From a virus, in the IMG/VR virus record IMGVR_UViG_3300012919_000025, positions 1 to 29,919 of that record: a stretch of 29,919 nt of DNA, one strand, 5' to 3'. The translations under genes were made by a program, and so were the position numbers. The notes below the pieces were generated by a model. The model ran no database searches. It was not told the origin of the DNA and saw only the letters and a program-made list of their open reading frames with translations. Within the stretch, counting starts at the first letter, position 1, and the number at the start of each line of letters is the position of its first letter. Positions 4,047 through 18,796 of the stretch are shown here, piece after piece.

Positions 4047-4382
4047 ATGGAACAATGGACTAACATAATCGTAAAAATACAAAAGGAAGGTATTCATTAC
4101 TGGAAAGATTGTGACTTAGAAGAAGTTGATTATCTTCAATATGCTCATAGACATATTTTTCATATCGTGTGTAAGAAAGAAGTAAACCACGATGATAGAG
4201 ATATTGAAATAATTATGTTCAAACACAAAATAGAAGATTATCTAACTGAAAAATATGGTGTAGTAGCAGAATTTGGTGGTATGAGTTGTGAAATGATAGC
4301 AAAAGAATTATTAAATAAATTTGAATTAAGCTATTGTAGTGTGTTAGAAGATAACGAAAATGGTGCAGAGGTATGGAAATGA
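4047..4382 (+). CDS. T-fold (QueD/PTPS-like) protein, divergent
   Basis: This 111-aa protein belongs to a family widespread in phages, usually unnamed. I see a layout that parallels the QueD encoded at 4972: an N-terminal strand with His17, then AHRHIFHI (His34, His36) in place of QueD's LHGHTY, then DRDIEIIMFKHKIEDYL, then MSCEMIAKELLNKF aligning with QueD's TSAENMAIWLFNQI, and a final strand with LEDNENGAEVW corresponding to QueD's AETKSSKVIY. It lacks the catalytic Cys and Asp-His pair of QueD. I infer a T-fold that may bind a pterin or purine. A closing 4-nt ATGA overlap leads to the small membrane gene. Confidence 0.5.
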   Translation: MEQWTNIIVKIQKEGIHYWKDCDLEEVDYLQYAHRHIFHIVCKKEVNHDDRDIEIIMFKHKIEDYLTEKYGVVAEFGGMSCEMIAKELLNKFELSYCSVLEDNENGAEVWK

Positions 4383-4971: not shown

Positions 4972-5376
4972 ATGCTGAAAATAGTAAAAACTTATCATTT
5001 TTATTCAGGTCATAGAAATAAAGAAGCTGGTGAAAAGTGTGGTAGGCTTCATGGCCATACATATGATGTTGAATGTACCTTTAAGTTTACAAACTTAGAC
5101 AATGGTATAACAATGTTGTTTAGTGATATTGATAAAATTACTGAACCAATTGTAAAACAATATGACCATTATTTTATTCTATTTGACCAAGACCCAATTT
5201 GTGAAATGTTAGATTTAGCAAATGAACCATATAAGAAAGTTCCATTTGAAACATCAGCAGAAAATATGGCAATATGGTTGTTTAATCAAATCAGAAAAGA
5301 GTTACCTATTATCAAAATAAGTTTAGCAGAAACAAAATCTAGCAAAGTTATATATGAGCAAGGGCTTGAGGATTAG
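4972..5376 (+). CDS. queD: 6-carboxytetrahydropterin synthase QueD
   Basis: QueD converts 7,8-dihydroneopterin triphosphate to 6-carboxy-5,6,7,8-tetrahydropterin, the second step of 7-deazaguanine synthesis. The 134-aa length fits the family. Zinc ligands are His14 (YSGHRN) and His27 and His29 (RLHGHTY); catalytic residues are Cys23, Asp65 and His66 (YDHYF); Glu120 in LAET is the pterin-anchoring Glu. The segment TSAENMAIWLF is also typical. The gene starts a compact cluster and overlaps queE by 23 nt. All key residues are present, so I expect an active enzyme. A 6-pyruvoyltetrahydropterin synthase role is less likely because of the queE and dpdA neighbours. Confidence 0.9.
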   Translation: MLKIVKTYHFYSGHRNKEAGEKCGRLHGHTYDVECTFKFTNLDNGITMLFSDIDKITEPIVKQYDHYFILFDQDPICEMLDLANEPYKKVPFETSAENMAIWLFNQIRKELPIIKISLAETKSSKVIYEQGLED

Positions 5377-6067
5377 TGAACACTTTTATTCCTTACAAGG
5401 TGAGGGTAAAACAATGGGAATACCTAGTGTGTTCCTAAGACTTCAAGCGTGTAATCTAATGTGTGATGCCAAATGGGTGTGTGATACAATAGATGTTTGG
5501 ATAACTGGCGACCAATATTCAATAGAAGATACATTAGATTTATTTGAAAAACAAGGATATACAGATGTTCTATTCAAAGGTGCACACTTAGTATTAACTG
5601 GTGGTGAACCATTATTACAACAAAAAGCATTAGTAGAATTTTTAGAGGCTTACTATGAAAGGTTTTTTTATTTACCATATGTTGAAGTAGAAACTAATGG
5701 TACAAAAACACCAATACCAGAATTAATCAAATATGTTAATCTATTCAATGTTAGTCCTAAACTATCTAATGCAGGTATGAATGAAAAAAGAAGAGTAAAA
5801 CCTGACACTATAAAAGTATTCAATGAAATAGAAAATAGTATATTCAAATTTGTTATAGCAGACAAAGATGATTACAAAGAATTGTGTGAAACATATATTG
5901 AACCTTTAGATATTAGAAAAGAAAAAATATACCTGATGCCAGCAGCAGATGACCAAGATATGTTAGATGCTAATGCTCAATATGTAGCAAGTGTTTGTAT
6001 AAAGAAATGTTATAACTATTCATCTAGGTTACAAATAGAATTATGGAATAAAACAACTGGTGTATGA
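5354..6067 (+). CDS. queE: 7-carboxy-7-deazaguanine synthase QueE
   Basis: QueE is a radical SAM enzyme that contracts 6-carboxytetrahydropterin to 7-carboxy-7-deazaguanine (CDG). The 237-aa protein has the QueE opening SEHFYSLQGEGKTMG (residues 8-22), the SAM-binding L-T-G-G-E-P motif near residue 82, VEVETNGT near 114 and a N-V-S-P-K-L segment. The cluster cysteines are Cys33, Cys37 and Cys43, giving C-x3-C-x5-C rather than the canonical C-x3-C-x2-C. QueE proteins are known to vary at the third Cys, so activity is still plausible. It overlaps queD and, through ATGA, the small gene that follows. Confidence 0.85.
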   Translation: MSKGLRISEHFYSLQGEGKTMGIPSVFLRLQACNLMCDAKWVCDTIDVWITGDQYSIEDTLDLFEKQGYTDVLFKGAHLVLTGGEPLLQQKALVEFLEAYYERFFYLPYVEVETNGTKTPIPELIKYVNLFNVSPKLSNAGMNEKRRVKPDTIKVFNEIENSIFKFVIADKDDYKELCETYIEPLDIRKEKIYLMPAADDQDMLDANAQYVASVCIKKCYNYSSRLQIELWNKTTGV

Positions 6068-6198
6068 TAGATTTTTTTAGACACTTTTTTGGTTTTTGTG
6101 GTGAACCTCATTTGAACTTCTGGCATATACTTGCAACACCTTTTGGTGGTTATATAATTTATAAATTAAAACAAATAAACAATGACAAAAAAAATTAA
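6064..6198 (+). CDS. Small hydrophobic protein, 44 aa
   Basis: This reading frame fills the gap between queE and the folE fusion. It starts in an ATGA overlap with the queE stop and ends 17 nt inside the next gene. The product begins with Phe-rich residues (MIDFFRHFFGFCGEPHLNFW) and continues with a hydrophobic stretch HILATPFGGYIIYKL, consistent with a short membrane-associated peptide. I have seen no named family. Its placement inside the base-modification operon is notable, but it may simply be a membrane peptide unrelated to the pathway. Confidence 0.45.
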   Translation: MIDFFRHFFGFCGEPHLNFWHILATPFGGYIIYKLKQINNDKKN

Positions 6199-7021
6199 AC
6201 TAGTATGGGAGGATATCTTTGCTAGAGTGCATGATTTACCTAATGGAAAATACTATGGAGTTCCAAGAGGTGGAACAATAGTTGCAGGTTTAACTGGTCA
6301 GGCAGTTGATACTCCTGAAGAGGCTGACTACATAATAGATGACCTAATAGATAGTGGTAGAACAAGAGATAAGTGGAAAGAAAAATATCCTGATAAACCA
6401 TTTGTGGCTTTATATAATAAACAAAATGGTGATAAGTATTTAGGTTGGATTGAGTTTCCTTGGGAAGAAAAAGGTGAAAGAGATGCAGAAGATAGTGTAG
6501 CTAGATTATTACAAGCATTTGGTGAAGACACAAATAGAGAGGGTCTAAGGGAAACACCTAAAAGGTATGTTAAGTTTTTTAAGGAATTTCTAAACCCACC
6601 AGATTGGAAGTGTACGACATTTGATAGTGAGGGATATGATGAAATGATAGTACAAACTAATATACCTTATCATTCTTTATGTGAACATCATATAGCACCA
6701 TTCTTTGGTGTAGGTCATATAGCTTACATACCTGACAAAAGAATAGTTGGTTTAAGTAAATTAGCAAGAACCTTAGAAACATTTTCCAGAAGATTACAAA
6801 ATCAAGAAAGAATAACAAATCAGGTAGCTGAATTTTTACAAAACCAATTGAACCCTAAAGGTGTGGCAGTAGTACTAACTGCAAAACATATGTGTATGGA
6901 AATGAGAGGTGTAAAGAAACACGATACATATACAACCACTTCTAAATTAATTGGCTCATTCAAAGAAGACCACAAGTGCAAAGCAGAGTTCTTACAATAC
7001 ATATCTAATGCAACAAAATAA
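6182..7021 (+). CDS. folE: Phosphoribosyltransferase-like / GTP cyclohydrolase I fusion
   Basis: This 279-aa protein has two parts. Residues about 1-95 form a short type-I phosphoribosyltransferase-like domain: YYGVPRGG (24-31) and the PRPP loop IIDDLIDSGRT (51-61). Residues about 98-279 are GTP cyclohydrolase I: RETPKRYVKFF (123-133), SLCEHHIAPFFGVGHIAYIP, GLSKLARTLETFSRRLQNQE, and AKHMCMEMRG. Zinc ligands Cys167, His170 and Cys238 are all present. FolE turns GTP into dihydroneopterin triphosphate, the QueD substrate. The PRTase part might salvage guanine or a 7-deazaguanine base to a nucleotide, but that is inference. Its stop overlaps the next ATG by 1 nt (TAATG). Confidence 0.85.
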   Translation: MTKKIKLVWEDIFARVHDLPNGKYYGVPRGGTIVAGLTGQAVDTPEEADYIIDDLIDSGRTRDKWKEKYPDKPFVALYNKQNGDKYLGWIEFPWEEKGERDAEDSVARLLQAFGEDTNREGLRETPKRYVKFFKEFLNPPDWKCTTFDSEGYDEMIVQTNIPYHSLCEHHIAPFFGVGHIAYIPDKRIVGLSKLARTLETFSRRLQNQERITNQVAEFLQNQLNPKGVAVVLTAKHMCMEMRGVKKHDTYTTTSKLIGSFKEDHKCKAEFLQYISNATK

Positions 7022-7959
7022 TGGCAATAATTCTAGTACATATTGAACCCTTAGAAGAACGCTATTCAAAGCAATGGTTAGATGACCTAAAGGATAAGGT
7101 TGATGTTATATTAGGTAGTACTGAAGAACAAGTAATAAAAGATGGTGAATTTCTAGATGTTTACGATACTAACTTATTCAAACTTAATCAAGGTATTGAT
7201 ATAATAAATTATGTTAGAACTCATAAACTTACTAAAGATGATACTATATTTTTTCTTGATTTATGGAATCCAGTAGTAACAATGTTAGGTTATGTTAGAG
7301 ATTGTATGAATTTAGATTTCAAAATTGCAGGTATGTTACACGCAGGTACTTGGGATGAATGGGACTTTCTATCAAGAAGTGGTATGGGCAGATGGGCAAA
7401 AGGATTAGAGTACTCAATGATACAAGTGGCTGATAAAGTTATAGTGGCTACTGAATTTCATAAAGAATTAATCAGAAAAGATATAATGGAATTTACTAAT
7501 ATTATTGTAGAAGATTTTCCTATTTTTACAGATGATATAGTTCTTGACAAAAAAAATATAGTTGTATTTCCACACAGACTAGCACCTGAAAAGGATGTAG
7601 ATTATTTTTGGAATGTAGCAAAAGAGTATAAGAAAAAATACAATGATGATACTGTATTTATAGAATCAGTAGGTAATTGTAACAGTAAACAAGACTACTA
7701 TAATTTATTAGCAGAAAGTAAGGTTAGTTTTAGTAGTGCTAAACAAGAAACATTTGGTATTGCAATGTTAGAAAGTTTGAATTTAGGTTGTATTCCAGTA
7801 GTTCCAAATAGATTAAGTTATAGAGAAACTTTACCAGGTTATACTTATAATAATATTGAAGAGGCTATTGAAATGGTTAGAGATGGTATTATGAATTGGA
7901 AAAGGCCTAAAAAATATACTGTAAATAACTTTGACAATATATTGAAAAGATTAAAATGA
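7021..7959 (+). CDS. GT-B glycosyltransferase (GT4-like)
   Basis: This 312-aa protein has a GT-B pattern. The C-terminal half has FPHRLAPEKDVDYFW (183-197), corresponding to the sugar-donor R-x-x-x-x-K region, and ETFGIAMLE (243-251), an intact E-x7-E motif of GT4-type retaining enzymes, followed by SLNLGCIPVVPN. The N-terminal half opens with IILVHIEPL and contains GMLHAGTWDEW and ADKVIVATEFHKE, the acceptor domain. The H-R-x-x-x-E-K-x-x-x-x-F segment and the opening I-E-P recall tRNA-queuosine mannosyltransferase (QTMAN/GTDC1), which glycosylates a 7-deazaguanine. It lies between folE and dpdA with TAATG and ATGA junctions. I infer that it acts on the modified base; another acceptor is possible. 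Confidence 0.7.
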   Translation: MAIILVHIEPLEERYSKQWLDDLKDKVDVILGSTEEQVIKDGEFLDVYDTNLFKLNQGIDIINYVRTHKLTKDDTIFFLDLWNPVVTMLGYVRDCMNLDFKIAGMLHAGTWDEWDFLSRSGMGRWAKGLEYSMIQVADKVIVATEFHKELIRKDIMEFTNIIVEDFPIFTDDIVLDKKNIVVFPHRLAPEKDVDYFWNVAKEYKKKYNDDTVFIESVGNCNSKQDYYNLLAESKVSFSSAKQETFGIAMLESLNLGCIPVVPNRLSYRETLPGYTYNNIEEAIEMVRDGIMNWKRPKKYTVNNFDNILKRLK

Positions 7960-8828
7960 AAATATTTCTAGCTGGTGTTGAGGGCGGTGACCCACAAAAG
8001 ATTAGAGAGTATATAGAATATGCTTTCTATTCATATTATTACCTTAGAAATGGTGATAAGCAGTTAGAGGGTGCTATTGACGCTCACAAAATACTATTCA
8101 TTGATAGTGGTGCACACTCATTCTTCAATGAAAAAAGTGATGAGGGAGTAATGAGTGCTTCATATCACACAAAGAAAACTAAAACAAAAGAAACACCAGA
8201 AGAATATTTTGAAAAATATTTACACTGGATAGTAAAAAATTATAGAAAAATAGATTATTATGCTGAATTAGATATAGGTGAATTAGTAGGACAAGATGTA
8301 GTTTTAGAATGGAGAGAAAGATTAAAAGAAAAAAATGTATATGATAAGTGTGTACCAGTATATCACCCTACTTGTATGACTTGGGACGATTATATTGATA
8401 TGTTAGATGACTGCACTAGTGGTTACATTGCATTAGAGGGAGATAGAGGTAATAGAAAAAGACTTAACTATAATAAACTAATAAAACCTGCATATGAAAG
8501 AGGTATTAAGGTTCACGGTTTTGCTATGACTAAAACAGAAGTACTTAAAAATTATCCTTTCTATTCAGTAGATAGTACAAGTTGGATGCAAAGTGAGATG
8601 TATGGAACAATACCTTTTCACAAAAATGGTAGTATTAAAGCATTAAGATATAGTGATAAAGAAAAATTAATAGAAAAATTAGGTGACCTTGATGTGAATA
8701 TACTATTTGGTGAGGATAAGGCAGTTAGAAGATTATATACAATGAAATTTGGAATAAGAGCTTACAAAGAATACGAACATTTTTATACAAAACTATGGCA
8801 AAAAAGAAACATAAACTGGGATATCTAG
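7956..8828 (+). CDS. dpdA: DpdA-like DNA guanine transglycosylase
   Basis: DpdA proteins are TGT-fold enzymes that swap guanine in DNA for a 7-deazaguanine base. This 290-aa protein shows the motifs: FIDSGAHSFF (48-57, Asp50 corresponds to the TGT general-base Asp in DSGG), YAELDIGELVG (102-112), VPVYHP (133-138), HGFAMT (187-192) and YSVDSTSWMQ (203-212), where Asp206 is a good candidate nucleophile. It lacks the long tRNA-binding C-terminal domain of archaeal TGT. It is joined by ATGA to the glycosyltransferase and overlaps the ParB-like gene by 34 nt. With folE, queD and queE it makes a phage DNA-modification operon. Substrate base is probably CDG. Confidence 0.8.
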   Translation: MKIFLAGVEGGDPQKIREYIEYAFYSYYYLRNGDKQLEGAIDAHKILFIDSGAHSFFNEKSDEGVMSASYHTKKTKTKETPEEYFEKYLHWIVKNYRKIDYYAELDIGELVGQDVVLEWRERLKEKNVYDKCVPVYHPTCMTWDDYIDMLDDCTSGYIALEGDRGNRKRLNYNKLIKPAYERGIKVHGFAMTKTEVLKNYPFYSVDSTSWMQSEMYGTIPFHKNGSIKALRYSDKEKLIEKLGDLDVNILFGEDKAVRRLYTMKFGIRAYKEYEHFYTKLWQKRNINWDI

Positions 8829-9448
8829 ATATAGATGTCAACCAATTAGTAAAAGCTGATTGGAACTATAAAGAAGATGACAAAGAGTTATCTAAAAAAC
8901 TAAAAAAGAATATTGAAGAAGAGGGTATAATTCAAAATCTAATAGTAAGGGAGTTAGGAGATAAGTATGAAGTAGTCAATGGCAACCATAGATTAGATGT
9001 AATGAACGATTTAGGTATCACTAAGGTACATGTATATAACTATGGTAAAATATCTAAGAATAAAGCTATGGAGGTAGCTATTAAGACTAATGAAACTGCT
9101 TTCAAAACTAATGCTCTTAAATTAGGAGAAACCTTTTCTGAATTAACAAAAGAATATGATATAGATTATTTAGCAGATAGTTTACCATTCAAGAAACAAG
9201 AAATAACTAATATGATTGAATTGTTAGAATTTGATTGGACTAAATTTGATGATGATGATGAATTAGATTTAGAAGAACCAGACCCATTCAATCACACAAT
9301 TAAACTAAAAGTAACAAAAGAGGTATATGAAAATTGGATTAACCTTAAAAAAAGGATGTTTGAAATAAATGGATATGACAATGATAGTAAGGTTATAGAG
9401 TTTGCTATTATAGAGGCATTAAATATACCCTTAGAAAGCCTTAAATAA
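8795..9448 (+). CDS. ParB/Srx-like nuclease-domain protein
   Basis: This 217-aa protein has the ParB N-terminal fold: IDVNQLVKADWNYK, then LSKKLKKNIEEEGIIQNLIVRE, then KYEVVNGNHRLDVMNDLGITKVHVYNY, where G-N-H-R corresponds to the ParB box II (G-x-R-R/H-R). An acidic stretch (DDDDELDLEEPDP, about 150-165) separates it from a C-terminal domain that looks like a helical DNA-binding or ribbon module (TIKLKVTKEVYENW...). ParB-like proteins are often found directly before phage terminase genes, as here, where they may help mark or process DNA for packaging. Enzymatic activity cannot be judged. The ATG lies 34 nt inside dpdA. Confidence 0.75.
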   Translation: MAKKKHKLGYLDIDVNQLVKADWNYKEDDKELSKKLKKNIEEEGIIQNLIVRELGDKYEVVNGNHRLDVMNDLGITKVHVYNYGKISKNKAMEVAIKTNETAFKTNALKLGETFSELTKEYDIDYLADSLPFKKQEITNMIELLEFDWTKFDDDDELDLEEPDPFNHTIKLKVTKEVYENWINLKKRMFEINGYDNDSKVIEFAIIEALNIPLESLK

Positions 9449-12182: not shown

Positions 12183-13670
12183 ATGGCTCATGTATTTGGA
12201 TTAAATAAAATAAAAGACGCTATGACTTCAGTGTGGGGCTATGGTGATATAATATTTTCTAAAGAACCTAATGAAATAAACTTTAATCATAACAATATAT
12301 ATCCAATGGCAGTTGTGGTTCAACCAGAATCAGCAACACCTAGTATCTATGATGGTTGGGAAGATTATAGTTATACAGTTTATTTCTGTATGTTGTGGAA
12401 AAAGACTAACAGAAGTGCAGGACCTATTGAACAAAAATGGGACAATATACAAAGGATTGCAAATGAATGGTTAGATAATTTATTACAAATATATAACAAT
12501 GAAGACCTTATCTTAGACCCTACGACATTGAATATAACAAGACATAAGAACTTTGGTAATGATAAGGTTTTGGCTATACAGTTTGATTTTGTCTTACAAG
12601 GTTTTAGGACTTGTTTTAATCCACAAAAGTTTCACCCTGATAGTTTCAATGCATCTAATATATCACAACCAGGTGGCAAATTAAGTATGTATCCTGCTAA
12701 TGGTACAAAGTCTTATGAGGCTAAACAAGAATGCAGAGGTTGGTGGAGGTTTGATGGTTGGAAAGAAACAATACTTCATCAAACTGTTAGATATGTTAAA
12801 GGTTTGAATGATATGGGTTTATGGAAAAGAACAGAAAACAATCAAGATGTAACACACAAATTGAAAAGCTTTGGTTATGATTCAGAAGATAAACTTAAGA
12901 TGAGTGTATTGAATAGTAATGATAGTGCAGGTAATGAAATATTTTTTGGTGAAGGAACTAAACAAAACAAAACACCTAGTGCTACACAACAACACCCAGG
13001 ATACACTATAGAAAAAAAAGGTGATATGGCAACCAATCCAGAAGATATGCAATTTCAAGCGTTGAATGGTAATGAGTTTAGTTTAGGTTTTGTATTTGAA
13101 TTAGGTAGAGATGATACTGCTGATGAAAATGCTTTCATATTTAATAGTGATAATGGAATCATAGAGGCAAATGGCACAGAATATTATGGTTATGGTTTTG
13201 CAATTAGTGCTATTGCAGGAGGTATTCTAAAATTTACTTTCATTAGTGCTGCTGGTAATCTTCAATCACAAAATGTTGATGTCACAGATTTATTTGGTAC
13301 TGATATATATACAAAAGAAAATAGAGTTGTATCTATGATAGTAACATATGATGGTCAAAGAAGTGTCAAAATCTTTGTACCTAATCATAATTCAGCTAGA
13401 GTATCATTAGTAATGCCTTTAGATACTACTGGTTTATCAGGTCCTAATTTTCAACCTTGGTGGGGGCTATTTGATAATTCAGTATTTTGTAAAGCTAATC
13501 CAACTGTTCAATCTATGAGAAATAGTTGTTGGAGAAATAATTGTTATGAATTTTTAGTATATAATTATGATATGAGTACTTATACTGACCACGAAACTAC
13601 TGTAACACAACCAAAGAAAATAAATAACTATTGGAAACAAAAATATAATATTGAATTAAACAACTTATAA
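12183..13670 (+). CDS. Tail protein: tail-terminator-like N-part plus LamG-like C-part
   Basis: This 495-aa protein appears composite. Residues 1-150 look like a small tail-completion or terminator domain (YPMAVVVQPESATPSIYDGWEDYSYTVYFCML, then an IQRIANEWLDNLLQ helix and IQFDFVLQGF), a layout seen in tail terminator proteins. Residues about 170-490 are beta-rich with aromatic residues; NEFSLGFVFELGRDD, RVVSMIVTYDGQRSVKIFVP and a terminal CYEFLVYN segment are typical of a laminin-G/concanavalin jelly roll, which can bind sugars. The gene begins 5 nt after the chaperone stop. I infer a tail end protein with an exposed carbohydrate-binding domain. No catalytic motif is seen. Confidence 0.5.
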   Translation: MAHVFGLNKIKDAMTSVWGYGDIIFSKEPNEINFNHNNIYPMAVVVQPESATPSIYDGWEDYSYTVYFCMLWKKTNRSAGPIEQKWDNIQRIANEWLDNLLQIYNNEDLILDPTTLNITRHKNFGNDKVLAIQFDFVLQGFRTCFNPQKFHPDSFNASNISQPGGKLSMYPANGTKSYEAKQECRGWWRFDGWKETILHQTVRYVKGLNDMGLWKRTENNQDVTHKLKSFGYDSEDKLKMSVLNSNDSAGNEIFFGEGTKQNKTPSATQQHPGYTIEKKGDMATNPEDMQFQALNGNEFSLGFVFELGRDDTADENAFIFNSDNGIIEANGTEYYGYGFAISAIAGGILKFTFISAAGNLQSQNVDVTDLFGTDIYTKENRVVSMIVTYDGQRSVKIFVPNHNSARVSLVMPLDTTGLSGPNFQPWWGLFDNSVFCKANPTVQSMRNSCWRNNCYEFLVYNYDMSTYTDHETTVTQPKKINNYWKQKYNIELNNL

Positions 13671-13671
13671 A

Positions 13672-15579
13672 ATGGCGACACAATATAATGGAAATGCTGG
13701 TTTTGTATATTTTCCTAGTGTAGGACTAAGAAACTCACACTCTATAACCAGTTATCAAAGGCTTAAGGCAGTTAATCAACCTGCAGTATATCAAGTGTAT
13801 GTTGATGATAATAATAAAGGATTAGACTATCAACCAGTTAATGCAGGTGATGTAGTCAATGTGGTATTTCAAATAATGGCTTCAGGTAATTATTCATTAG
13901 CAGGTGCAGGTAATAGTAGAGTAATTGCTGAAATAAGAAAAGCAGCAGACATACCTTTTGAATATGGTAGTAATGATTTTACTAACTATACTAATTTTCC
14001 TTTAAATGGTAATCTAAACAAAAGAATATTTACTGTAGATATAAGTAACATTATCAAGACAAGATTATCATATGGCTTAATACCAGTAGGTAGAGGCACT
14101 TTTAATACTGAAATAATACAAGGACATTTGGGTACTGGTTTGTCAGGTGTTTATGGCCCTAATATACAATCACCAGTTGGTCAAGGTTGTCAGCAAGTAA
14201 AAGTTAAAGCATATTTTGAAGTACTAAATGCTGATGGAGAAATAGAAATAGCAAGACTAAATAATGGTAACATTCAATATGTATATGAAAATAATAATAT
14301 AACTGGCACTTCAGGTTATCCTACATTTTATGTTAATGCAGTAAGGCAACACGATGAAAGACAAGACCTTAATCAATATATAGTTAGAAGTACAAGGAGC
14401 GCAAGAAATGATAAGTTCTTATCTATGTGTCCTAATGGTTCTAATGATTCAAGTTTTGCTTCACCTAAGTATCTTAAAAAAATTAGATTAGATGAAAGGC
14501 AAGAGGCTTTGTATTGGTTTCAATTTCAAATACAAAAAAGCACACAAGGTCTAACTACTTTTGCAGGTGCAAACGCACAACAAAGTGCTTGTAAGGATAT
14601 GTTTATATATGTTGAAACATTGCAATCTAATGGTACGAATAACACTGCTAAACTAAATACTAATCAAGATTTTATGTGGTGGAGTATAGGTAACTGGCAA
14701 GATACACCAAATAATTTTGGCCCTGGAGAACCAAGAGGTGTTTCAGAATATCCTGCAGCTTGGTTAGCACAAAATGTATCACCTGATTATATAAATAATT
14801 CAACAGTTGGTACTCCAATTAATTCTGACACTTTACAATATAGAGTTTCATTAAGGTGGGAAGATTGTGAGAATGGTAGTTGTAGTCAAGCAGGTGGTGG
14901 CCCTAATCTTAATTGTAACAATTGTTTAATAACACCAGGTAATGTTTGGACTGGCACAGAATATAGAAGTACAGAATATAGGTATTTTGTTATAGACCAT
15001 AGTTCTGAAAATGCACCATTTCCATATATAAGAATACATTGGTTAAATAGTTTAGGTGGTATAGATAGTTATACTTTCAAAAGAAATAAAACAGAAACTA
15101 TATCTAGAAAAATATCAACTTATGAAAGAAAACCAAATGACCCTAGTTGGGGACTTGAAAAATATGGCCCTGCAGTTAATGATGTTATGATAGATGATAC
15201 TTGGGGTACTTGGCAAATTAACTGGGGCTTACAGATAGGCACAGACCAATATAAACAGAATACTGATGTGTTAAGTGTAGAGGCACAAGTAACTGGAACT
15301 GTATATTCAGAACCTTTGAATAAAGAAGATTCTAAATGGTTATCTGAAATAATGAAAAGTCCTAATGTTTGGATGGAAGTAGAAAATGATAGAGCAGATA
15401 GAAATGCTTATATAAATTCAGCAGTTTATGGTGGTTATGATATGTACACAACTAATAAAGATTACCAACCTATAATTGTTCAAGATGGTGAAATGATGTT
15501 GGTAGATGAGGAGAATAGATTAGTACAATTTCAATTACAATATAGAAAAGCCAATAACGAAATAACACAAAGAAACTAA
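13672..15579 (+). CDS. Large tail structural protein, 635 aa
   Basis: This is a beta-rich, low-charge protein without recognised enzymatic motifs. The last 90 residues match a pattern I know from tail proteins of Bacteroidota phages: SKWLSEIMKSPNVWMEVEND, then YQPIIVQDGEMMLVDEENRLVQFQLQYRKANNEITQRN, where the end A-N-x-x-I-T-Q-R is conserved. A Cys-rich segment near residues 400-425 (CENGSCSQAGGG...CNNC) may form a disulfide or metal knot. It lies between the composite tail protein and the 1050-aa tail protein, so a distal tail or tip component is likely. Exact role is not decidable. Confidence 0.55.
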   Translation: MATQYNGNAGFVYFPSVGLRNSHSITSYQRLKAVNQPAVYQVYVDDNNKGLDYQPVNAGDVVNVVFQIMASGNYSLAGAGNSRVIAEIRKAADIPFEYGSNDFTNYTNFPLNGNLNKRIFTVDISNIIKTRLSYGLIPVGRGTFNTEIIQGHLGTGLSGVYGPNIQSPVGQGCQQVKVKAYFEVLNADGEIEIARLNNGNIQYVYENNNITGTSGYPTFYVNAVRQHDERQDLNQYIVRSTRSARNDKFLSMCPNGSNDSSFASPKYLKKIRLDERQEALYWFQFQIQKSTQGLTTFAGANAQQSACKDMFIYVETLQSNGTNNTAKLNTNQDFMWWSIGNWQDTPNNFGPGEPRGVSEYPAAWLAQNVSPDYINNSTVGTPINSDTLQYRVSLRWEDCENGSCSQAGGGPNLNCNNCLITPGNVWTGTEYRSTEYRYFVIDHSSENAPFPYIRIHWLNSLGGIDSYTFKRNKTETISRKISTYERKPNDPSWGLEKYGPAVNDVMIDDTWGTWQINWGLQIGTDQYKQNTDVLSVEAQVTGTVYSEPLNKEDSKWLSEIMKSPNVWMEVENDRADRNAYINSAVYGGYDMYTTNKDYQPIIVQDGEMMLVDEENRLVQFQLQYRKANNEITQRN

Positions 15580-15647
15580 TGTTTAAGTTTAAGTTATGGA
15601 TATTTAATATACAATTAATACCACCAAAAATAACTATTAAATTATGA
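15579..15647 (+). CDS. Possible 22-aa coupling peptide
   Basis: A 22-codon frame begins on an ATG overlapping the stop of the 635-aa gene (TAATG) and ends with TGA overlapping the ATG of the 1050-aa gene (ATGA). The peptide is hydrophobic and basic (MFKFKLWIFNIQLIPPKITI). The perfect double junction suggests that ribosomes translate it in passing, coupling the two large tail genes. It may have no function as a protein. Chance is possible in such AT-rich DNA. Confidence 0.3.
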   Translation: MFKFKLWIFNIQLIPPKITIKL

Positions 15648-18600
15648 AAAAGGTAGAAATAGAAATATTACAAATTAATCAAAAAGAAACAACATTAACT
15701 AATCAACCAGTTAATCAGTTTCTTGGTAATGTAGATTTCAGTAGTCCAGTTGGTAGCAACTATACTTCTACCTATCCAGGTGTTGGTGATAACAATTGGC
15801 AATTAGCATACAAAAATAATTTACCAATCAATAACAATTGGAAAACTTTTAATGTTAATGCTGCACCACCAATAGGTGTAATAGCAACTGCACAACCACA
15901 AGTAGTAGGAAGTGAAATGCGATTATACACTCAATCAACAAATATTTCACAAACAACTATCAGTGGTATTTATCAAATGATAACTGGTGCAACACCTGGT
16001 AATCAATATACTTGCACCTTTGAAATTAGTTCTTTACCAGTTAATATGGCTGGTCTTTTCTTAGTTTTTGGAATACCACACTTTGCTTTTCAAACAAATA
16101 CACAAAACGCTAATCAATATGATAGTGGTGGTGGTGTTTATAGAGAGGACTTTTATGCACCTTTTTCTGCTACAAATATGCCTAATGGTAACATATCAGT
16201 TTTTAATGATGCTGTGTTTATACAAGTGATGAATCTAAGTGTTGGTACTAATTCATTTGAATTTACTTGGGGTAGTAATCCTAATGCACCTTTTGGTGTA
16301 GGAATGATAGGCTCTAATGGTACTAATAATCTACAATACATTGGTATAGATGAAATAAAGGTTGAAAATAATTCTACACAAAATGTAACAGTTATAGATG
16401 ATTTAGCAAGTACGATTGGTAGATTAGATTTAACAGATAGTCAGAACTTTCCTTTATCATTAACTTATGCAGTTGCAGATGGTAGTAATTTTGAAAGTAT
16501 ATTTGGTGATTATTCTAAAACATTCAAAGTTCCTGCTACAAAAAATAACATTAAATTATTAGGTCATATTCAGAATGAAAAGATTATAGATTCTAAGAAT
16601 ATAACAATGTTTAAGAATTGTAGGATATTAGTAGATGGTATAGAGTTTGCTAATGGTAAACTAAAAGTTAGTTCCTCACAACAAAGAAAAGACCCTGAAC
16701 TATTTGAGTGTGTTTTCTATGGTGGTAATTCAGATTGGGGCTCACAAATTAAAGGTAGAAGAATGTGTGATTTGATTACAGAATTAGGTGATGGTACAAA
16801 CACTTATAATTTGTTATATGATTATCCTGATATAGAGGCTACTTGGACTATGAATAATGCTCAAACAGATATTGTTTATCCATTAGTTAGTGTTGGTGAT
16901 TTCTACCCTGGTGGAACACCTGCGGTTGTCAATATGTTTGATACAGATGCTAGTGAACAAGATTGGAGAGCATATTTTTATGTAAGAAATCTTATTAAAT
17001 ATATATTCAAACCAACTGGTTATAGAATAGAATCAGACTTCTTAGATACCTATAAAGGTGGTTGGTTCAAAAGATTAATATGTCAATTTCAATGGGGCAA
17101 AAATGATGGTGATAATTTAAGTGAGGCTGCTACTATTGAATATGAAGATGGTCCTTCTAGTGGTTCTTGGTCTGATATTAATATGATTGTTGGTACTGGT
17201 ACTTCTGGTGGTTCATCAGACACTGGTTTTCAACCACTTGGTTCAACACCTGCACAACCAGGACTTCAATTTGAAACTTTAATAACAGATGACTTTGGTC
17301 AATTTAGTTCTGACTTCTATACTGGTTCTGCTACTGGTCAAATAACAATAGCATTAGATGGTAAAATGAATTATGATTGTAGTATTAATTTTGTTACTGG
17401 TGCTGGTATGAGTGGCTCTGCACCTTGGAATAGTCCAGTCGGACAAACTGGTGGTTTTTTACATAATAGTTTTGTAAGGGTACAAAGATTTAGTACACTA
17501 ACTGGTGCTACAACAACCTTAGCACAAGCTTCAGCATCTTATCAATCAGGTGCTTCATATACAAGTTCTTATTGGACACACCAAACTGTTGCAGTAAATA
17601 CTGGTTGGACTTTTGTAAATGCAGGTGATAAAATATGGTGTGAGGTTAGGACTACTGGTTTTGTACCTGGCTCTATGACTAACAATAGTTCTCCTTGGGT
17701 TAGTGGTGTTGTTAAGGATAATGTTACTAATGGTCGTACAAGGTTTAAGATGGAGTTTAATGCACAAGAAATACCAATTGGTAGTCGTTATAAACTACAC
17801 GAATTAATGCCTTGTAGTGTAAAGCAAACTGATTTCTTAAAAGGTATTGCTCATATGTTTAATTTATATTTCTATACTGATACAACAAAAAAGATTGTTT
17901 ATATAGAACCATTTGATAAATTTTATAAATCACCTACTGAAGCATACAATTGGGATGATAAGGTAGATTATTCAAAACCTATCATAGACAAATACAATAC
18001 TGGTTTGACTAATGAGATACTATTCAAATATAAAAAGGATAGTAATGATAAGATTTTGCCTTGGTATGAAAAACAAGAGTTCAAAGAATATCCTTACTAT
18101 TCATTCTATTATAATAATGTATTGAATGGTGTGCCAGGTTTTACAACATTTGAAAATCCTTTGTTCACTGGTACATTAATGGAATATGATAATGATACTA
18201 ATGGTGACCCTGGTTCTGGTGATGCTAATAACATACCAGTAATGGCAAAAGAAATAACTGCTTATGCAAAAAGAGGTACACCTGATAGGCCAAGTCAAGG
18301 TAACTTTGGAATAAAAATATTATGGTACAATGGTAAAGTAAGTCAAACTACAAATGAAGTAGGTTTTTGGAAAAGACAAACTGGTGCAAGTAGCTTTATT
18401 GGTAGTAACTTTTATCCAAGAGCAGTATTTGTAGATAAAACTAATGACACTTCATTAACTGGTAACTTAACATTTGCAGAACAAACTAATTTAAGCTATG
18501 GTGATGAGTTTAAGAGTAATACTTTTTCACCTGCTATATTGTTACCTGGTTTAGTAAGTAGATATTGGAGTAATATGTTAGACCAATTATACTTATCACC

Positions 18601-18796
18601 TAAAGTAAGAACCTTGTCAGTCAATATAAAAATCAGAGATATACTAAACCTAGATTTCAAAAGATTAATATATATGAATGGTAGTTATTGGAGATTAATT
18701 AAAATATTAGAATTTGCACCTGCAAAAGATATAGTAACAAAAATAGAATGTTTACAATGGATTGAAGCACCAATGCCTAACAGAAAACAAAATTAA
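15644..18796 (+). CDS. Very large tail protein (tail tip/hub or spike), 1050 aa
   Basis: This is the largest gene in the window. Residues about 245-345 carry the segment LTDSQNFPLSLTYAVADGS...FGDYSKTFKVPATKNN...LLGHIQNEKIID, a module common to large tail proteins of Bacteroidota phages (F-x-x-F/Y-S-K-x-F-x-V-P-A-x-x-x-N). It is followed by CRILVDGIEFANGKLKV. Before it lies an apparent insertion (about 25-240) of beta-sandwich, carbohydrate-binding type. The middle (about 505-700) is rich in Gly, Ser and Thr, and the last 120 residues contain VRTLSVNIKIRDILNLDFKRLIYMNGSYWRLIKI, a typical tail-hub-like end. It probably sits at the tail tip and contacts the host. Confidence 0.6.
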   Translation: MKKVEIEILQINQKETTLTNQPVNQFLGNVDFSSPVGSNYTSTYPGVGDNNWQLAYKNNLPINNNWKTFNVNAAPPIGVIATAQPQVVGSEMRLYTQSTNISQTTISGIYQMITGATPGNQYTCTFEISSLPVNMAGLFLVFGIPHFAFQTNTQNANQYDSGGGVYREDFYAPFSATNMPNGNISVFNDAVFIQVMNLSVGTNSFEFTWGSNPNAPFGVGMIGSNGTNNLQYIGIDEIKVENNSTQNVTVIDDLASTIGRLDLTDSQNFPLSLTYAVADGSNFESIFGDYSKTFKVPATKNNIKLLGHIQNEKIIDSKNITMFKNCRILVDGIEFANGKLKVSSSQQRKDPELFECVFYGGNSDWGSQIKGRRMCDLITELGDGTNTYNLLYDYPDIEATWTMNNAQTDIVYPLVSVGDFYPGGTPAVVNMFDTDASEQDWRAYFYVRNLIKYIFKPTGYRIESDFLDTYKGGWFKRLICQFQWGKNDGDNLSEAATIEYEDGPSSGSWSDINMIVGTGTSGGSSDTGFQPLGSTPAQPGLQFETLITDDFGQFSSDFYTGSATGQITIALDGKMNYDCSINFVTGAGMSGSAPWNSPVGQTGGFLHNSFVRVQRFSTLTGATTTLAQASASYQSGASYTSSYWTHQTVAVNTGWTFVNAGDKIWCEVRTTGFVPGSMTNNSSPWVSGVVKDNVTNGRTRFKMEFNAQEIPIGSRYKLHELMPCSVKQTDFLKGIAHMFNLYFYTDTTKKIVYIEPFDKFYKSPTEAYNWDDKVDYSKPIIDKYNTGLTNEILFKYKKDSNDKILPWYEKQEFKEYPYYSFYYNNVLNGVPGFTTFENPLFTGTLMEYDNDTNGDPGSGDANNIPVMAKEITAYAKRGTPDRPSQGNFGIKILWYNGKVSQTTNEVGFWKRQTGASSFIGSNFYPRAVFVDKTNDTSLTGNLTFAEQTNLSYGDEFKSNTFSPAILLPGLVSRYWSNMLDQLYLSPKVRTLSVNIKIRDILNLDFKRLIYMNGSYWRLIKILEFAPAKDIVTKIECLQWIEAPMPNRKQN

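Follow-up and report, generated by a model that had tools for sequence, protein, structure and literature searches.

A phage 7-deazaguanine operon without QueC carries a swappable DPL and glycosyltransferase module and may make a glycosylated 7-deazaguanine for phage DNA

The IMG/VR virus record IMGVR_UViG_3300012919_000025, a linear fragment of 29,919 bases which we analysed whole and refer to as the window, carries a 7-deazaguanine operon of the kind used in DNA modification, in which no QueC is found, and we find that this QueC-less variant is real and widespread. We propose, with a probability of about 0.6, that its product is a glycosylated 7-deazaguanine in phage DNA, made by means of a swappable module consisting of a QueD-like protein, labelled DPL here, and a glycosyltransferase (GT), and inserted by a matched transglycosylase, DpdA. 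The original prediction, made from the sequence of the window, had described a QueC-less operon of queD, queE, a folE fusion and dpdA, and members of all four families are indeed found there through PF01242, phrog_2076, PF01227 and phrog_887 matches, respectively. It had also called these genes adjacent and coupled, which holds in so far as their ends overlap or abut, but folE and dpdA are separated by the GT gene (7021-7959). This gene and the DPL gene upstream of queD are two parts that the prediction did not mention. The genes of the operon are:

4047-4382, + strand: DPL, 111 amino acids, with a QueD fold; phrog_17812 (function unknown), E 1e-24
4972-5376, + strand: QueD, 6-carboxytetrahydropterin synthase, with the C..HGH motif; PF01242, 81.7 bits, E 5e-23 (cut-off 22.4)
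5354-6067, + strand: QueE, synthase of carboxy-deazaguanine (CDG), a radical SAM protein with CX3CX5C; phrog_2076, E 3e-55
6182-7021, + strand: fusion of a phosphoribosyltransferase (PRTase, about residues 1-96) and FolE (residues 103-274); PF01227, E 7e-65, 218 bits
7021-7959, + strand: GT, a GT4-type retaining glycosyltransferase of 312 amino acids with EX7E; PF00534, E 9e-9
7956-8828, + strand: DpdA-like transglycosylase; phrog_887 'queuine tRNA-ribosyltransferase', E 5e-32

From the functions of their families, FolE, QueD and QueE would convert GTP to CDG. We propose that DPL would then take over the conversion of CDG from QueC, the simplest route being decarboxylation to 7-deazaguanine, that GT would add a sugar to the deazaguanine, either as the free base or after its insertion, and that DpdA, acting as its family does, would swap the deazaguanine for guanine in phage DNA, while the PRTase would turn the released guanine to GMP and thus to GTP for FolE. 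The resulting glycosylated 7-deazaguanine may block host nucleases.

The absence of QueC and QueF from the window, as originally noted, was borne out: PF06508 (QueC) had no match across the whole record, and the sole signal for QueF was a marginal Pfam cross-match inside FolE (27.4 bits versus a cut-off of 27.3, residues 174-230), lying beneath the 218-bit FolE match, so a QueF gene in the operon was rejected. Because the record is a linear fragment, it does not by itself establish that the phage lacks QueC. We scanned IMG/VR with GT and DPL profiles and obtained 158 loci, 128 with GT and 30 without, counts in which near-copies and contigs entered twice (L007/L112 and L011/L117) remain. QueC was present within the locus stretch in none of the 128 GT loci, and these contained DPL in 125 cases, a TGT-family transglycosylase in 120, FolE in 102, QueE in 86, PRTase in 60 and QueD in 40. 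The arrangement of the operon is thus far beyond chance, since considerably more than a hundred loci share this gene set. QueC was also sought in 49 whole GT-bearing records, with phage phiSM as control; the full-length protein was found in phiSM and in 0 of the 49, and partial matches occurred in four, one of which was rejected as an NAD synthase.

With the first profiles, DpdA was seen in only 12 of 80 GT loci; clustering then revealed a family of about 514 amino acids, marked by a DSGG(F/Y)Q motif and unmatched in Pfam and PHROG (for example L065:5091-6605), which is the apparent transglycosylase in 83 of the 128 GT loci and aligns with the transglycosylase of phages ACP17 and X1 (hhalign 99.8). 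A further family, phrog_20335, annotated as unknown (L164:8720-9499 in Cellulophaga phage phiST; L128:697-1542), resembles a transglycosylase related to DpdA (hhalign 93.6 with the DpdA type of the window) and occurs in GT-less DPL phages and in none of the 128 loci with GT. Relatives of GT are encoded by named phages whose hosts differ widely, namely Acidovorax ACP17, Pseudomonas PAC2 (PA5oct group), Sinorhizobium Phosso, Xanthomonas X1 and Synechococcus BUCT-ZZ01; in the five neighbourhoods inspected, QueE lies near GT, with FolE present in four and DPL in all five. DPL without a detected GT is carried by phiST, MA9V-3 and Roos, and QueC by phiSM and 9g. Five DPL loci from metagenome-assembled genomes labelled Rhodobacteraceae, Bacteroidetes, Phycisphaerae, Euryarchaeota and Rickettsiales have the same cassettes, four of the five with GT, labels that do not identify the host. 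According to a part of PMC7824862, PA5oct has a system for deazaguanine synthesis and incorporation; phage glycosyltransferases are discussed there in a different context, that of capsular polysaccharide clusters.

An independent sample of 80 IMG/VR loci, collected through QueE with the window and phiSM proteins as queries, revealed that DPL and QueC exclude each other. QueC was found in 37 of these loci, DPL in 26, neither in 17 and both in none (Fisher p 6.5e-10, uncorrected for kinship); among the 55 loci of at least 10 kb, the corresponding numbers were 31 with QueC only, 17 with DPL only, seven with neither and none with both (p 5e-9, likewise uncorrected). GT occurred in 13 of the 80, in 13 of the 26 with DPL and in 0 of the 54 without it. 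QueC, DPL or DPL together with GT often share one slot between FolE and DpdA, as is best seen in L182, L183 and L186, whose DNA can be aligned through queD, queE and folE and at the end of folE passes into DPL+GT, DPL and QueC, respectively. That DPL takes the place of QueC implies that it works on the QueC substrate, CDG.

Next to the slot genes, DpdA is the component whose history follows the state of the operon. Of 81 loci, 58 contained the complete set of four genes and could be assigned a state; from these, 52 non-redundant ones were retained (30 QueC, 11 DPL and 11 DPL+GT). On the trees of these 52, the state changed 18 times for QueD, 19 times for QueE, 16 times for FolE and 4 times for DpdA, as compared to shuffled means of 19.9-20.1; shuffles as low as the observed value numbered 0 of 200 for DpdA and 1 of 200 for FolE, which lies beside the slot and is mildly clustered. 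In a larger DpdA tree, the DPL+GT and the QueC groups each required 5 changes (shuffled means about 30), and in the 52-locus tree the DpdAs of DPL-only operons formed one side of a fully supported branch. Phylogenetic placement of the window DpdA, which the original prediction had suggested as a check, put it on one tree with the DpdAs of 9g and phiSM, in a branch that holds DPL+GT operons only. DpdA lineages are therefore largely distinct between DPL-only, DPL+GT and QueC operons. We conclude that operons of all three states have much of the upstream CDG factory in common, and that each set of slot genes moves together with a DpdA of its own. Taken together, the mutual exclusion of DPL and QueC, the restriction of GT to DPL operons and the separate DpdA lineages indicate that QueC is replaced, not missing, and the different DpdAs of DPL-only and DPL+GT operons suggest that GT changes what DpdA handles.

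DPL was recognised in the window through relatives, as a homologue directly precedes the GT gene in the IMG/VR locus L001, the DpdA of which is 73% identical to that of the window. A search of PDB sequences with DPL gave rows at chance level only, and its kinship to QueD emerged from a fold search: an AlphaFold2 model built from 53 sequences (pLDDT 96.9) matched E. coli QueD (4ntk) with Z 13.1 and a root-mean-square deviation of 2.0 over 106 residues, better than it matched other enzymes of the tunnelling fold. DPL His17, His34 and His36, which are invariant in the 53 sequences, fall on the metal-ligand positions of QueD and form a triad of zinc-binding type; also invariant are Arg35, Arg51, Glu54, Ser80, Cys81, Glu82, Glu101, Asp102 and Glu104. 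In QueD, the catalytic cysteine lies four residues before HxH. When aligned with QueD, DPL has an equally invariant leucine, Leu30, in its stead, so that it shares the fold and the histidine triad of QueD and lacks its catalytic cysteine. The conserved residues are identical in the 43 DPLs from GT loci and the 10 from GT-less loci, and the reaction of DPL is therefore probably the same in both. In a 2023 paper in Nucleic Acids Research, Cui et al. are said to have predicted a protein, DpdL, as a CDG decarboxylase, and our label is taken from there; DPL is possibly identical with DpdL or closely related to it, the name serving as a label only. In two phages, DPL forms the C-terminal part of a larger protein, following an endonuclease VII/HNH-like domain in Chryseobacterium phage MA9V-3 (L163:7467-8348) and about 260 residues of unknown family in Vibrio phage Bakedbeans (L167:7230-8381).

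The AlphaFold2 model of GT, from 54 sequences (pLDDT 94.2), has a GT-B fold of GT4 type, with sucrose-phosphate synthase, MshA and BshA at Z 23-24 (up to 24.3) and tetrahydrobiopterin glucosyltransferases near Z 20.8. Within EX7E, the position of E243 is occupied by E or D and that of E251 is kept in 54 of 54 sequences, and the R-E-K positions are also kept. For comparison, we assembled 11 bacterial PF12038 (QTMAN_N) proteins and 25 generic GT4s from the same phylum. A profile of the 54 phage GTs matched all 11 QTMAN-family proteins at E 8e-20 to 8e-30, whereas the best of the 25 generic GT4s reached 7.2 bits. Conversely, a QTMAN profile of 10 rows, two of them wrong reading frames, matched 54 of 54 phage GTs (window E 1.6e-16), and a generic GT4 profile 12 of 54. 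The similarity resides in the C-terminal, donor half, a profile of which matched 11 of 11 QTMAN-family proteins with 62-98 bits (E 1.1e-19 or better) versus 9.6 bits for the best of the generic GT4s (n=25); in a tree of phage GTs, QTMAN proteins and generic GT4s, a clade of the first two was not rejected (approximately unbiased p 0.627), which falls short of proving it. Judged from these profiles, GT lies outside the QTMAN family, and its donor half shares specific ancestry with it.

QTMAN is the tRNA-queuosine mannosyltransferase, and queuosine is likewise a 7-deazaguanine. Like GT, QTMAN is of GT4 type, but the acceptor domain of GT is not detectably similar to it, the operon is different and the target is probably DNA. 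Phage glycosyltransferases that act on a DNA base are familiar from T4, whose alpha- and beta-glucosyltransferases decorate hydroxymethylcytosine in phage DNA, and from the arabinosylation of RB69. Their likeness to GT is at the level of function, and the acceptor is a hydroxymethylpyrimidine there versus a proposed 7-deazapurine here. T4 DNA glucosyltransferases were not among the 50 fold matches listed for GT, which excludes nothing. Mannosyl-queuosine in mammalian tRNA is mentioned in a part of PMC10639084.

The partner of FolE in the fusion protein appears nearest to a xanthine/guanine-type PRTase: the domain matched NF006613 at E 1e-6, below cut-off and with part of the domain aligned, its six best PDB matches were xanthine or xanthine-guanine PRTases, and it carries the phosphoribosyl pyrophosphate-binding motif IIDDLIDSG. 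As one guanine would be expelled per inserted base and one GTP consumed per deazaguanine, the salvage of guanine by a PRTase attached to FolE would complete the cycle. The same fusion was found in many QueC operons among the QueE-anchored loci, and is thus independent of the sugar, in agreement with the predicted guanine recycling.

Several points weigh against a glycosylated 7-deazaguanine as the product. The conversion chemistry, the sugar and the location in DNA are predictions, and it is not obvious which atom would accept the sugar should DPL leave a bare C7-H. In the window, DPL sits about 2.6 kb upstream of GT; by our profiles, 8 of the 128 GT loci are without a transglycosylase and 42 without QueE, some of them at contig ends. 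The acceptor (N-terminal) half of GT is no closer to QTMAN proteins than to generic GT4s, and PF12038 was matched by 0 of the 54 phage GTs at E 0.01. In 3 of the 49 GT-bearing records (L171/G022, L172/G025 and L174/G028), a divergent QueC-like PP-loop protein of 190-220 amino acids is encoded far from the cassette, having a QueC-like cysteine-rich tail and the PHROG annotation 'QueC-like' and scoring 22-29 bits with TIGR00364 versus a cut-off of 150. Lastly, the slot genes adjoin dpdA, and their shared history may reflect co-transfer and not matched specificity.

GT may also act outside the pathway, on a host surface glycan, a protein or another DNA base, with DPL alone belonging to deazaguanine synthesis. 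Phages frequently encode GT4 enzymes, which often have surface glycans as their targets, and DPL operates without GT in 13 of the 26 DPL operons. We nevertheless find this unlikely, given that the GT gene overlaps dpdA by 4 bases in the window, that nearly all GT loci contain DPL and GT never occurs without it in the QueE-anchored set, that DPL and DPL+GT operons have different DpdA lineages, and that the donor domain is related to QTMAN and is not that of a generic GT4. It is more improbable still that there is no QueC step at all and DpdA inserts CDG itself to yield dCDG, GT and DPL being bystanders or acting on the carboxylate, as the original prediction had in part suggested. Besides the lack of QueC in the window record, this idea could draw on the 17 of 80 QueE-anchored loci with neither QueC nor DPL, though many of these contigs are short. 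In their 2023 work, Cui et al. reportedly described dCDG in phages. A passage of PMC6884629 also proposes the CDG form for the QueC-less Mycobacterium phage Bipper. The window, however, has DPL, a protein mutually exclusive with QueC in the 80 loci that replaces it at the same junction in relatives, and its DpdA belongs to the branch confined to DPL+GT operons.

The second possibility raised by the original prediction, that QueC of the host completes preQ0 and DpdA inserts this base, has also become less likely, and we regard it as very improbable. Phages without synthesis genes could use host-made precursors, as a passage of PMC6884629 has it, but this would leave unexplained why no locus of 80 contains both DPL and QueC and why GT occurs only with DPL, and operons of the same architecture with QueC encode their own. 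Least probable of all would be a modification of tRNA, with a queuosine-like or mannosyl-queuosine-like base, in place of phage DNA. Membership of the transglycosylase in the TGT superfamily and the kinship of GT with the Pfam family of the queuosine-tRNA mannosyltransferase would both fit; yet we noticed no QueF-, QueA-, QueG- or QueH-like gene in the cassettes, although these were not searched for as families, and the DpdA tree joins the window enzyme with those of phages 9g and phiSM, the DNA of 9g carrying dG+ according to a part of PMC6884629.

The operon resembles the phage FolE-QueD-QueE-QueC and DpdA systems of 9g, CAjan and Rosebush in uniting FolE, QueD, QueE and a DpdA-family transglycosylase, and differs from them in having DPL and GT for QueC, its own DpdA lineage and a PRTase-fused FolE. 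The dCDG/dDG phages with DpdL, reportedly described by Cui et al. in 2023, likewise have a QueC-less operon, to which the window adds GT, and its DpdA differs from those of DPL-only phages. In the literature that we searched, which left the 2023 paper of Cui et al. and a 2024 MMBR review outside, no report of a glycosylated 7-deazaguanine in phage DNA was found, and this is not proof of novelty. If a glycosylated 7-deazaguanine is indeed the product, sugars would join the known 7-deazaguanine DNA modifications, and likely functions would be at hand for phrog_17812 and for a GT family spread over phages of many hosts. Phages would then switch to a different DNA base by exchanging a small cassette together with its own transglycosylase, the PRTase-FolE fusion would suggest how DpdA systems recycle the expelled guanine, and the modification would bear on restriction escape. 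The isolates ACP17, the PA5oct group, X1, BUCT-ZZ01, Phosso, phiST, MA9V-3, Roos, phiSM and 9g make the idea directly testable, and L186, L183 and L182 constitute a natural series for the base specificity of DpdA. A bolder version, which we regard as less likely than not, is that phages from small ones such as that of the window to jumbo phages carry a sugar on 7-deazaguanine, possibly as a C-glycoside at the C7 that decarboxylation by DPL would free and possibly attached to the free base, each DpdA lineage inserting its own base, with QueC, DPL or DPL+GT plus DpdA being interchangeable plug-ins on the CDG factory, so that an exchange of one to three genes would alter the DNA chemistry of a phage.

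Further genes accompany the GT cassettes. An epimerase-, GFO/IDH- or ADH-like gene is present in 31 of the 128 GT loci and absent from all 30 without GT, which speaks for a glycosylated product. U174, a family of roughly 174 amino acids unmatched in Pfam and PHROG (for example L075:6706-7245), is found in 74 of the 128 and 0 of the 30, and is a candidate for a further enzyme of the sugar pathway. The cassettes also contain HhH-GPD-like (19 of 128; L042:13238-13654), HIT-like (23; L042:15380-15763), cysteine-dioxygenase-like (24; L043:12380-12802) and second radical-SAM proteins (12; L007:8709-10004), all in 0 of the 30 GT-less loci.

As to the family assignments in the window itself, its QueD scored 68 bits with TIGR03367, under the 89-bit cut-off, and its QueE below the NCBIfam QueE cut-offs, whereas the FolE part exceeded the family cut-off with 201 bits for TIGR00063; DpdA had no Pfam match at E 0.1. 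By alignment, the CX3CX5C cysteine spacing of QueE, unlike CX3CX2C, is of a phage type to be compared with that of phiSM. Whereas its neighbours share 56-73% identity with their window counterparts, the QueE of L001 (L001:1170-1781) has diverged strongly. From queD to a parB-like gene that overlaps the end of dpdA, all genes lie on the + strand with ends overlapping or abutting, and two of them remain to be listed:

6064-6198, + strand: open reading frame of 44 amino acids overlapping queE and folE, without family match
8795-9448, + strand: ParB-like protein; phrog_723, E 7e-19

L001 likewise has a similar ParB downstream. In the window, the ParB-like gene is followed by genes for a DUF5681-like protein and then the terminase large subunit. 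At 12183-18796, upstream of a tape-measure-like gene, lie three large proteins of 495, 635 and 1050 amino acids, the first two without Pfam match and all three together with a single weak match in PHROG. The nearest relatives of the terminase large subunit, too distant to assign the window to a host, are those of Thermoanaerobacterium and Flavobacterium phages, at 37-38%.

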